64,000 nucleotides of DNA, from NCBI RefSeq assembly GCF_032854445.1, contig NC_088302.1, forward strand, positions 40,616,191 to 40,680,190, given 5' to 3'. The stretch is from Liolophura sinensis (Eukaryota > Mollusca > Polyplacophora > Chitonida > Chitonidae). A program made the position numbers and the translations under genes. The first letter of the stretch is position 1. Each line of letters starts with the position of its first letter. The notes under the pieces were generated by a model. The model was given only the letters and a program-made list of their open reading frames with translations. It was not told where the DNA came from and did not search any database. This document shows positions 5,715-63,416 of this stretch, in pieces.

Positions 5715-6635
5715 ACCAGGACACCATGCTGATCTTACCAGATATGACGCTACAACCAGTCAGTATACCGACATCTGTCCTTCACAGTATATTAAAACAT
5801 GGCCAGCCCATTATACTGTCACCTGGCGAATTACAGAAACCTGACCAGTCACAGTATGCTGACACCTGACCAGTTACAGTACACTAACATCTAACCAGTC
5901 ACAGTATGCTGACACCTGACCAGTCACAGTACACTAGCATCTAACCAGTCACAGTATGCTGACACCTGACCAGCCACAAAATACTGACACCTAAACTGTC
6001 ACAGTATGCAGACACCTCGCCAGTTACAGAATACTGACACCTGACCAGTCATAGTATGCTGACACCTGACATGTCACATAATACTGACGCCTGAACTGTC
6101 ACAGAACATTGGCACATGTCCAGTCACAGAATACTGACACCTAACCAGTCACAGCAGAGTGAAATCCGACCAGTCACAGTATGTAGACACCTGACCAGTC
6201 ACAGTATGCTGACACCTGACCAGACACAGTATGCTGACGCCTGACAAGTCACAGAATACTGACGCCTGAACTGTCACAGAACATTGGCACATGTCCAGTC
6301 ACAGAATACTGACACCTAACCAGTCACAACAGAGTGACATCCGACCAGACCCATACGCTGACACCTGACCAGACACAGTATGCTGACACCTAACCTGACA
6401 AAGTATGCTGACACCTGACCAGTCACAGTATGCTGACACCTGACCAGTCACAGAATACTGACGCCTGAACTGTCACAGAACATTGCCAAATGTCCAGTCA
6501 CAGAATACTGACACCTAACCAGTCACAACAGAGTGACATCCGACCAGACCCATATGCTGACACCTGACCAGACACAGTATGCTGACACCTAACCTGACAA
6601 AGTATGCTGACACCTGACCAGTCACAGTATGCTGA
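5715..6635. repeat. 25-bp minisatellite with higher-order periodicity
   Basis: A tandem repeat with a 25-bp unit close to 'CAGTATGCTGACACCTGACC' plus 'AGTCA'. It is degenerate at the left edge and regular from about 5840. Variant units recur in blocks: the run starting 'cagaatactgacgcctgaac' occurs at 6252 and again at 6451 (199 bp, about eight units). A related run starts at 6077, seven units earlier. The 104-codon open frame overlapping the left edge (5555-5869) runs into the repeat and is not taken as a gene. Confidence 0.9.
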
Positions 6636-52309: not shown

Positions 52310-53172
52310 TCAGACTGGCGGCCAACGTCTGCACCATCAGACTGACGACAAATATCTGCACCATCGGACCGACGACAAACGTCTGCACCATCGGGACTGA
52401 CCACAATGGCTTGCACCATCGGGACTGGCCACAAACGTCTGCACCATCGGGACTGACCACAGACGCATGCACCATTGGGACTGGCCACCAAACGCCTGCA
52501 CCATCGGGACTGACCACAAAGGTATGCACTATCGGGACTGGCCACAAACGTCTGCACCATCGGGACTGGACACAAAAGTCTGCACCATCGGGACTGGCCA
52601 CAAACGTCTGCACCATCGGGACTGGCCACAAACGTCTGCACCATCGGGACTGGCCACAAACGTCTGCACCATCGGGACTGACCACAAACGCATGCACCAT
52701 TGGGACTGGCCACCAAACGCCTGCACCATCGGACTGACCACAAAGGTATGCACTATCGGGACTAGCCACAAACGTCTGCACCATCGGGACTGGCCACAAA
52801 CGTCTGCACCATCGGGACTGGCCACAATGGCTTGCACCATCGGGACTGGCCACAAACGCATGCACCATCGGGACTGGCCACAAACGTCTGCACCATCGGG
52901 ACTAGCCACAAACGTCTGCACCATCGGGACTGGCCACAAACGTCTGCACTATCGGGACTGGCCACAAACGTCTGCACCATCGGGACTGGCCACAATGGCT
53001 TGCACCATCGGGACTGGCCACAAACGTCTGCACCATCGGGACTGGCCACGAACGTCTGCACTATCGGGACTGGCCACAAACGCCTGCACCATCGGGACTG
53101 GCCACAAACGTCTGCACCATCGGGACTGGCCACAAACGTCTGCACCATCGGGACTGGCCACAAACGTCTGCA
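52310..53172. repeat. 28-bp minisatellite, about 30 units, open in several frames
   Basis: The unit is close to 'CTGCACCATCGGGACTGGCC' plus 'ACAAACGT' (28 bp). Edge units are diverged and central ones near-identical. Variant units recur in sets: a run with 'cgcatgcaccattggg' then 'ccaaacgcctg' then 'aaaggtatgcacta' occurs from about 52456 and again from 52681 (about eight units apart). The 'AATGGCTTG' variant occurs near 52405, 52825 and 52993. Because 28 is not a multiple of three and the unit has few stops, long frames (up to 237 codons) appear on both strands. They are artefacts. Confidence 0.95.
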
Positions 53173-61786: not shown

Positions 61787-61906
61787 AAAATTGATATTCG
61801 TCCGAATTACTCGATGATTAACAGGTCTGATGGGCCGACTGTTCCTTTCTAATAACATCTGAGAATTTTCAAATCCACCCTTGTTCAAAGATTTTATTAA
61901 TTCTAT
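61787..61906 (-). CDS. CA10-like: CA10-like exon (RTNINF exon)
   Basis: 120 bp, 40 codons, phase 0 at both ends. It is preceded by 'TGTATGATTTTCAG' and followed by the donor 'GTAAGTATG'. It encodes a helix-like start ('IELIKSLNKGGFENSQ') and 'NSRPIRPVNHRVIRTNINF', which aligns with the RPVQxLxxRxIRTNI(N/D)F stretch near the C-terminus of CA10/CA11. Confidence 0.9.
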
Positions 61907-62851
61907 CTGAAAATCATACAAACAAAACAATTGTTACATTCAAAAGTATAGTAATAACTTTGAAATGGTGAAGAGTAAAGGATGGGGACAAATATATGAG
62001 CAAACAGTTCGCAACAGAACTGCTACTTGGGATAAAATTTTTCATTTAATGACCATTACAGCAAGAAATATTACATTGCGTCATTTACAGACGCGTGTGA
62101 ATTTGAGACTGATCCATGTTTTACGCCTTCAGAAATAAGGTTCTGTTAACAGTTTTCAAATAAAAATGCAAACGACATCTGTGTTGCACCCGCTTGAGGT
62201 ACATGCTTATTTGCTCACCTGTCTTTGTGACACGTATATCGGTCTGTTCATGATAACCCACGTGACCGTCTCGTAACATCCGGGCTGTGTCAGCGACCCT
62301 TCGTAAGTTATAAACTGGGTAGTGTTTGGTAATAGCCACTTCATCTTCACTTTGTTTAAAGATACGAATTGTCCTGTTGAGAAACAGAAAACATGTAGCA
62401 ACAAATATCGACTGAGAGTACTAGATTAATACAAAATACATCAAGAACTGGTGAACTTTCTACAGGCGCTATGGGTAATGATCCGAGTCTTGCTTGTGGT
62501 TTGTTCGGGAATGGCCTTAAAGTTCGAGTGAGTTGAGTAGTTTGTTAGCCGTCAAATATCAAAAAGCACGGGAAAAGTAATCGTACTTTAGAATCGGATT
62601 GCTTTTGGGCCCATTTATTAACATATCTGTGAGATGAAACTGTATACCTCGACATCAACCCAACGGCCCACTTCACATCTCCTGGTAAGTTATTCTACGC
62701 CGCGCTGTGGAATTCAAATTTATCGGGGAGAAAATTCAAGACAAGGTACCGTGATATTTCTACAATCATTGTGACATTTCTTACCTTGAAATCTTACTTT
62801 TGACATAGAATGAGCTAAAACATCGAACTCCTCATTTTCTGATGTTCCAAC
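61787..62851 (-). CDS. CA10-like: carbonic anhydrase-related protein (CA10/CA11-like), three exons visible
   Basis: Partial minus-strand gene: exons 62851-62785, 62373-62219 and 61906-61787. The joined frame contains the CA signature region ending the beta-sheet core ('WLLPNTTQFITYEGSLTQ', 'PGCYETVTWVIMNRPIYV') and the C-terminal 'RPIRPVNHRVIRTNINF'. The NRPIYV and RTNINF wording is typical of the CA10/CA11 branch, which are secreted or surface proteins of nerve tissue thought to lack CO2 hydration and, in vertebrates, to bind neurexins. In catalytic enzymes the core motif is SLTTPP; here the second Thr is Gln and the second Pro is Gly, fitting a non-catalytic relative. The zinc-ligand histidines are in exons outside the window and were not checked. 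All three introns bounding these exons have GT..AG ends with consistent phases. Confidence 0.9.
62219..62373 (-). CDS. CA10-like: CA10-like exon (core YEGSLT exon)
   Basis: 155 bp. Acceptor 'CTGTTTCTCAACAG', donor 'AGACAG|GTGAGC'. The first two bases complete a glycine codon begun in the previous exon, and the exon ends in phase 0. It encodes 'QFVSLNKVKMKWLLP', 'NTTQFITYEGSLTQPGCYE' and 'TVTWVIMNRPIYVSQRQ'. The TWxI and PI.VS spacing is standard for alpha-carbonic anhydrases. Confidence 0.93.
62374..62784 (-). other. intron of the CA10-like gene
   Basis: 411 bp with GT..AG ends. No repeats or other features were seen. Confidence 0.8.
62785..62851 (-). CDS. CA10-like: CA10-like exon (VGTSENEEFDVL exon)
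   Basis: 67 bp: 22 codons and one base. Acceptor 'TTTTTCTACTGCAG', donor 'TTTCAAG|GTAAG'. It encodes 'VGTSENEEFDVLAHSM' and 'SKVRFQ', matching the VGxxNxEL...L..V.xxG segment that follows the central beta-strand in alpha-CAs. Starting in phase 0 and ending in phase 1, it joins cleanly to the next exon. Three diverged copies of this segment lie just upstream. Confidence 0.85.
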
Positions 62852-62885
62852 CTGCAGTAGAAAAAAAAACAAAGACAGACAATGA

Positions 62886-63105
62886 TTGCGTGAGTCACAA
62901 ATGAGTTAAGACATCGAGTTCATCATTTTTTAGCTTCTCCGTACAGAAAAAACATAGACACCATTTTGATTCATACAAATGAGCTAAGACATCACCTTCC
63001 TTATTTATTTTGGTTTCCTACGTCCAGAAAAAAACATGTTATACCAATGAATTAAGTAATCAAGCTGTCGATTTTTTAGGTATTTCACCTGCAACGAAAA
63101 ACAGA
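62886..63105 (-). repeat. three decayed tandem copies of a CA10-like exon
   Basis: Copies at about 62886-62952, 62966-63032 and 63036-63105 repeat the layout of 62785-62866: on the plus strand 'AATGAG.TAAGACATC', an A/T-rich middle, then a short C-T block and an A-run (the acceptor polypyrimidine tract on the minus strand). The first two have lost the AG or gained stops and indels. The farthest copy keeps an AG acceptor ('TTTCGTTGCAG') at 63089-63090 and 14 in-frame codons beginning 'VKYLKNRQLDYLIH', colinear with 'VGTSENEEFDVLAH', but no matching donor. Confidence 0.75.
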
Positions 63106-63416
63106 GAAAAAAGAGTCCAGGCATGATTAGCTGCGATAGAATTCATATACGAATGATTATGGCTTAACAGCAATATGGCAGTCATATTGTAATGAGAATA
63201 TGTTTATACCAGGAGACAGTAAATGGTATATTGGACGCCACAATGAGAATAGCTAAAATCAACCCCAAAACATGGCCATTTTTAAAAACCAACTTAAATA
63301 GCGCAAAGTTAAATGTGGAGAAAACAGCAAAAATACATAAAGATCAGATGATCGAGAATGATAAGCGAGAAAACTTAGTCGTAATTGTGGTCTTAAATAT
63401 TTTTTTGAATCTTCTT
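63106..63416. other. likely upstream intron of the CA10-like gene
   Basis: No exon is recognised. The plus-strand 75-codon frame at 63192-63419 is AT-rich and has no motif. Confidence 0.5.

Follow-up and report, generated by a model that had tools for sequence, protein, structure and literature searches.

Partial exon copies upstream of a carbonic anhydrase-like exon in Liolophura sinensis: a probable old minisatellite across an intron-exon boundary

Are tandem copies beside a short exon alternative exons in the making, or do they only resemble them? The question is raised by a carbonic anhydrase-like gene in a stretch of 64,000 nucleotides from the chiton Liolophura sinensis (contig NC_088302.1, positions 40,616,191 to 40,680,190; the whole stretch is called the window here). 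On the minus strand of 62785-63107 a tandem array is formed by a 67-nt exon and three partial copies in its upstream intron. A preliminary description had seen in it a multiplied single exon and an early stage of mutually exclusive exons. The parts of the array and the neighbouring exons of the gene are listed in the order of the gene.

64418-64323 on the window scale (L002 2608-2513), outside the window, minus strand: preceding exon, 96 nt
63089..63107, minus strand: outermost part of the array, the intron end of copy D with its pyrimidine tract
63046..63088, minus strand: copy D, exon-like part, acceptor 15.8, an open 67-nt exon being possible if it is extended to 63022, where the donor is weak (5.5)
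63018..63035, minus strand: copy C, intron-end part, its outer limit being the block cut chosen for alignment
62964..63017, minus strand: copy C, exon-like part (about 54 nt), acceptor weak (4.6), frame open into copy B
62941..62960, minus strand: copy B, intron-end part with pyrimidine tract, its outer limit likewise the block cut chosen for alignment
62900..62940, minus strand: copy B, exon-like part, AG missing at the acceptor place, exon frame reaching a TGA after 14 codons
62785..62851, minus strand: real exon (67 nt, phase 0 to 1), VGTSENEEFDVLAHSMSKVRFQ, acceptor 15.7, donor 8.6
62219..62373, minus strand: exon downstream of the real one (155 nt, phase 1 to 0)
61787..61906, minus strand: exon after that (120 nt), ending ...IRTNINF before a GTAAGT donor

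A repeat finder returned four members on the minus strand (62806-62840, 62897-62931, 62975-63009 and 63043-63077); across 35 nt, identity to the reference member ranges from 71 to 80%. In five of the six member pairs the pairwise alignment score was reached by none of 1000 shuffles, and for the outermost pair (D-A) it was matched by 12 of 1000. With member starts 91, 78 and 68 bp apart, the tandem copies beside the exon were confirmed as had been described. Acceptor AGs stand directly before 62851 (real exon), 63017 (copy C) and 63088 (copy D), the latter two 71 nt apart. The output of Tandem Repeats Finder at a minimum score of 30 did not contain the array. The motif 'AATGAGCTAA.ACATC', given earlier as common to all copies, is exact in the real exon and in copy C, but carries one change in copy B and several in copy D. 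An origin from a dispersed repeat or transposon was rejected, as a genome search with a 371-bp stretch, which skips very common words, gave a single match, the stretch itself.

When the exons are joined with the real exon included, one open protein is obtained that matches PF00194 (alpha carbonic anhydrase) with 180.7 bits at a cut-off of 27. In an alignment to the CA7 chain 3ml5_A, at what we take to be the zinc-ligand positions, the first histidine is replaced by lysine, the second is retained and the third is replaced by glutamine. Since two of the three zinc histidines are missing, the predicted protein is probably acatalytic, like CARP VIII, X and XI, which are acatalytic according to the passages cited from PMC2873310. 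The loss of zinc-binding histidines, as expected of CA10/CA11, is present and makes the gene a candidate CA10/CA11-like gene by this one feature; no CA10 or CA11 sequence was among the matches listed, 60 of 214, in the search with the CA7 structure. Eleven carbonic anhydrase-like loci are located on the chromosome of the window (contig C8, 17.5-48.5 Mb), and the usual HFHWG motif is replaced in all nine zinc-site exons that were read (all loci except L004 and L012), an apparent expansion of relatives that would be acatalytic.

The repeat unit consists of the 3' end of the intron, with pyrimidine tract and acceptor, and the first 43-54 nt or so of the 67-nt exon. In the alignment, copies B and D reach about 43 nt into the exon and copy C about 54 nt, and neither the 3' end of the exon nor its donor is repeated in any unit in the alignment of the four members. 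An intron would not fit beside a 67-nt exon within a spacing of 68-91 bp, and the copies are thus tandem acceptors with exon starts and not exon copies. The multiplication of a single whole exon proposed earlier is therefore not supported, as exon end and donor occur once only and the spacing is too tight. Gapped alignment with the real exon gives the copies an identity of 62-78%. For copy D a stretch of 14 codons without indel had been reported; the net length is indeed kept, GAT and CAT being found at matching offsets, but without gaps only 22 of 42 nt agree and the best alignments need compensating gaps.

Splice-site scores were compared with 116 reference acceptors (median 9.6), whose exon edges were placed automatically and are certainly wrong in some cases. 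The acceptor of copy D (15.8, 99th percentile) scores like that of the real exon (15.7), so the intact acceptor claimed for the most distant copy is there, whereas copy C scores 4.6 (10th percentile) and the nearest AG in copy B 1.9. The decay that had been suspected for most copies is seen in B, which lost its acceptor, and in C, where it is weak. If the acceptor of D is joined to the real donor, a stop codon follows at 63007-63005, in agreement with the early protein end that had been named as one possible outcome for this copy; from the acceptor of C the stop lies at 62897-62895. Mutually exclusive exons would have an acceptor, a donor and an equal frame in each copy. Here, B has no acceptor AG, C has a weak one, homologous donors are absent and only D has a possible, weak donor.

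The codon-position bias of the aligned copies, proposed earlier as a check, was counted against the real exon. Substitutions at positions 1, 2 and 3 amount to 6, 1 and 3 in B, 4, 2 and 3 in C and 7, 7 and 3 in D (gapped), and to 9, 6 and 5 in D when 42 nt are compared ungapped. Over these few sites no third-position excess is present in B, C or D. The corresponding exon of the paralogue L004 differs from the real exon by 5, 2 and 7 substitutions.

The preceding exon of the same gene carries an array as well. Tandem Repeats Finder reports a 73-bp unit in 13.5 copies at L002 2564-3550 (window scale 64374-65360, minus strand, beyond the window). This unit comprises about 28 nt of intron end and the first 45 nt of the 96-nt exon, and the last copy runs 45 nt into the exon, so that two adjoining exons of one gene show the same kind of boundary structure. 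In all 12 extra copies examined the acceptor AG is changed to AC, and an AG six bases on persists with scores of 7.5-10.0, compared to 12.9 for the real acceptor. Raw substitutions against the exon (24, 31 and 51, of 180 each) show a third-position excess. Counted as distinct sites, the consensus differs at 2, 2 and 4, the copies vary among each other at 4, 3 and 3, and all 12 differ at 1, 1 and 4; counted in this way the excess is small, and it may stem from silent change in the exon itself. A 297-bp piece of this array matched the genome only within the array itself (four rows; this search, too, skips very common words).

Arrays at exon edges were then counted in 37 carbonic anhydrase loci, hand-paired from 108 profile matches with several matches, e.g., C1:91182417 and C6:14867251, left out. 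The window gene and the 36 further loci provided 228 edges (117 acceptor and 111 donor). At a fixed score 11 of the 228 edges passed, compared to 382 of 4872 intronic control tests. Three of the passing rows were dropped: L035 at 1947 because it is itself a copy, L020 at 869 because the match contains stops and the edge is unreliable, and L024 because its alignment starts about two bases inside the exon. The eight remaining edges belong to the preceding exon described above, to L025, L019 and L020, and to L034, L035, L037 and L038, which share a contig. Exon sequence is held by donor-side arrays at L019, L020, L035 and L038, where the alignments were viewed, and at L034 and L037 as judged from scores only; at L025, an acceptor-side array whose alignment was viewed, the exon start is uncertain. 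In a z-score test 6 of 190 edges reached at least 6 (one of them, L020 at 810, is unreliable), compared to 62 of 700 intronic controls. The donor arrays of L020, L035, L037 and L038 were left out of this test because their flanks are too short, and when these four are added the count of about 10 of 194 still stays below the controls. The array under study (the exon-5 array) lies below the threshold of the fixed-score test and has a z of 11.1 in the z-score test. Neither the 228-edge score test nor the 190-edge z-score test showed an enrichment of arrays at exon edges over intronic controls; arrays are frequent in these introns and sometimes overlap exon edges. The repeat, its unit and the splice-site scores are read directly from the DNA, as is the recurrence of this design at the preceding exon and other loci.

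An array common to the paralogue L004, taken as the closest by eye from its exons, was not seen (z 0.8 and 0.2 at L004). In a replicate with cytochrome P450 genes (40 of 99 matches, hand-picked, the match ends serving as exon edges) a z of at least 6 was reached by 2 of 80 edges: L079, an acceptor array with about ten bases inside the match, and L065, which is near the profile end and may not be a splice edge. A donor-side mirror of the arrangement was seen at four carbonic anhydrase loci on contig C1, where 60-bp units of exon end and donor occur in 1.9-3.4 copies.

L034 2178-2323, contig C1: donor-side 60-bp array
L035 1852-1967, contig C1: donor-side 60-bp array
L037 1882-1997, contig C1: donor-side 60-bp array
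L038 2295-2499, contig C1: donor-side 60-bp array

Because the unit length of 60 bp is divisible by three, splicing from a later donor could insert 20 additional codons. At L038 the first read-through reaches a TGA just past the donor.

That similar arrays are found at further exon edges, donor edges included, points to minisatellite formation and not to a step towards mutually exclusive exons. Together with the absence of a third-position excess on the few sites counted, these arrays speak against the reading as early mutually exclusive exons in the preliminary description. We therefore consider it likely that the array is an old intronic minisatellite seeded across the intron-exon boundary, a 'mirage', and not a set of working alternative exons. 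As to how the duplication arose, which way the change went and how the transcript is spliced, we infer the following course. The intron end and the first 43-54 nt or so of the 67-nt exon would have been tandemly duplicated by slippage or unequal exchange. Only a copy still continuous with the exon end and donor, which were not duplicated, could serve as a full exon, and as there is one such copy the upstream ones would have turned into intron and drifted, B losing its acceptor, C being weakened and D retaining a good one. Splicing would normally use 62851, with perhaps rare cryptic use of 63088, and most likely the whole array is spliced out as intron. Short tandem duplications can reportedly double splice signals and in this way give rise to introns by tandem genomic duplication; here, in contrast, an existing intron was lengthened, at a position that is presumably old in alpha carbonic anhydrases.

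Copy D differs from the other copies. After 63022 a donor-like site (score 5.5, 21st percentile, compared to 8.6 for the real donor) would close an open 67-nt exon of correct phase. In this reading 63088-63022 (67 nt, phase 0 to 1, VKYLKNRQLDYLIHWYNMFFSG) would stand in for the real exon, as a mutually exclusive exon that is either in use or just arising; inclusion of both would shift the frame. Its acceptor is as good as the real one, and an open stretch of exactly 67 nt with such a donor has a frequency of 0.0012 at 115123 intronic points, a control set that still contained real unlisted exons. Any open, frame-compatible stretch of 46-99 nt with such a donor has a frequency of 0.018, and donors of this strength occur at 347 of the 115123 positions. 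Furthermore, of 36 intronic acceptor-like sites scoring at least 10, D is one of 11 that are followed exactly 67 nt on by a donor-like site, and the other ten are read as real unlisted exons of this type. However, the donors of these ten presumed exons are stronger (7.5-10.9), D shows no third-position excess on its few sites, and the letters of its donor are those of the acceptor region of copy C. The 67-nt fit is suggestive, but it was spotted after the fact. When D is swapped in for the real exon, the PF00194 score drops by 15.7 to 165.0 bits, compared to 156.7-162.6 for five shuffles of D and 181.7 for the paralogue's exon. A nascent or working exon D is unlikely in our view. We give an equally low chance to the related course in which the acceptor of C drifted to GTAGG, a usable donor, and closed D as an open 67-nt exon, so that a latent mutually exclusive exon would have emerged from a boundary minisatellite. 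Copy D nevertheless offers a concrete and inexpensive test case for whether a boundary fragment can turn into an exon.

A role in regulation, with the additional acceptors and pyrimidine tracts as decoys for the real exon or with decay of the message when C or D is joined to the real donor, would fit the strong acceptor of D and the stops into which the frames from C and D run. It is improbable, given that the acceptor of C is weak and that of B lost, that L004 has no array and that the 12 copies at the preceding exon lack the AG at the matching place, even though the AG six bases on scores 7.5-10.0. Whole-exon duplications whose 3' ends and donors were deleted later are very improbable: copy C does align to about 54 of the 67 nt, but all three copies would require similar deletions and the more uniform 73-bp array of the preceding exon has the same truncated design.

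The minisatellite across the boundary, which we prefer, has a counterpart in amphioxus, where the cited passages describe 'mirages' as minisatellite-like tandem duplications of intron end and exon start, or of exon end, in globin genes and Adh3 (PMC3087553) and also in PGBD5 and TnC (PMC3902484). Like the array here, they consist of tandem copies of an intron end and the neighbouring piece of exon, on the acceptor or the donor side, and tandem units across the intron-exon boundary are found both at the array under study and at the preceding exon. According to these passages the units measure 10-72 bp in Adh3, 150-160 bp in the globins BflGb6 and BflGb9, and 60 and 108 bp in PGBD5; many, not all, retain splice signals. 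Regular splicing reportedly goes on unaffected by mirages (PMC3087553, PMC3902484), which were also proposed as a source of new introns (PMC3087553). In difference to the amphioxus genes, the array here belongs to a mollusc carbonic anhydrase-like gene, known from the sequence of one assembly, and identity between its copies and the real exon is 62-78% in gapped alignment, whereas the BflGb6 units described are 81-100% identical to each other. With the tandem exon duplications linked to mutually exclusive exons in the cited part of PMC9013439 it shares homologous copies beside an exon and, in D, a possibly equal length and phase; unlike those duplicates the copies lack the exon end and a homologous donor, and coding constraint is not seen on the few sites compared. 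By analogy the array would be a further case of the mirage kind, with splicing behaviour and length instability as predictions. A narrow literature search yielded no earlier mollusc mirage, by which absence from print is not claimed; a Conus paper (PMC3862624) concerns simple repeats in the passages cited. If the reading is true, the mirages described for amphioxus are present in a mollusc as well, on both the acceptor and the donor side of exons and, in one gene, at two exons. Such arrays would show how introns collect exon fragments resembling alternative exons, which may mislead gene prediction and any search for mutually exclusive exons.

Two large minisatellites were found elsewhere in the window, one of 28 bp in 30.8 copies at 52313-53172 with long open frames on both strands and one of 25 bp in 32.2 copies at 5832-6635. 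In addition, eight hemocyanin-domain matches follow each other consecutively in the genome; PF14830 being a molluscan domain, they indicate a mollusc and speak against amphioxus as the source. Contig C99 contains seven COX1 matches about 15.5 kb apart and looks like mitochondrial genomes joined head to tail, probably an assembly artefact.
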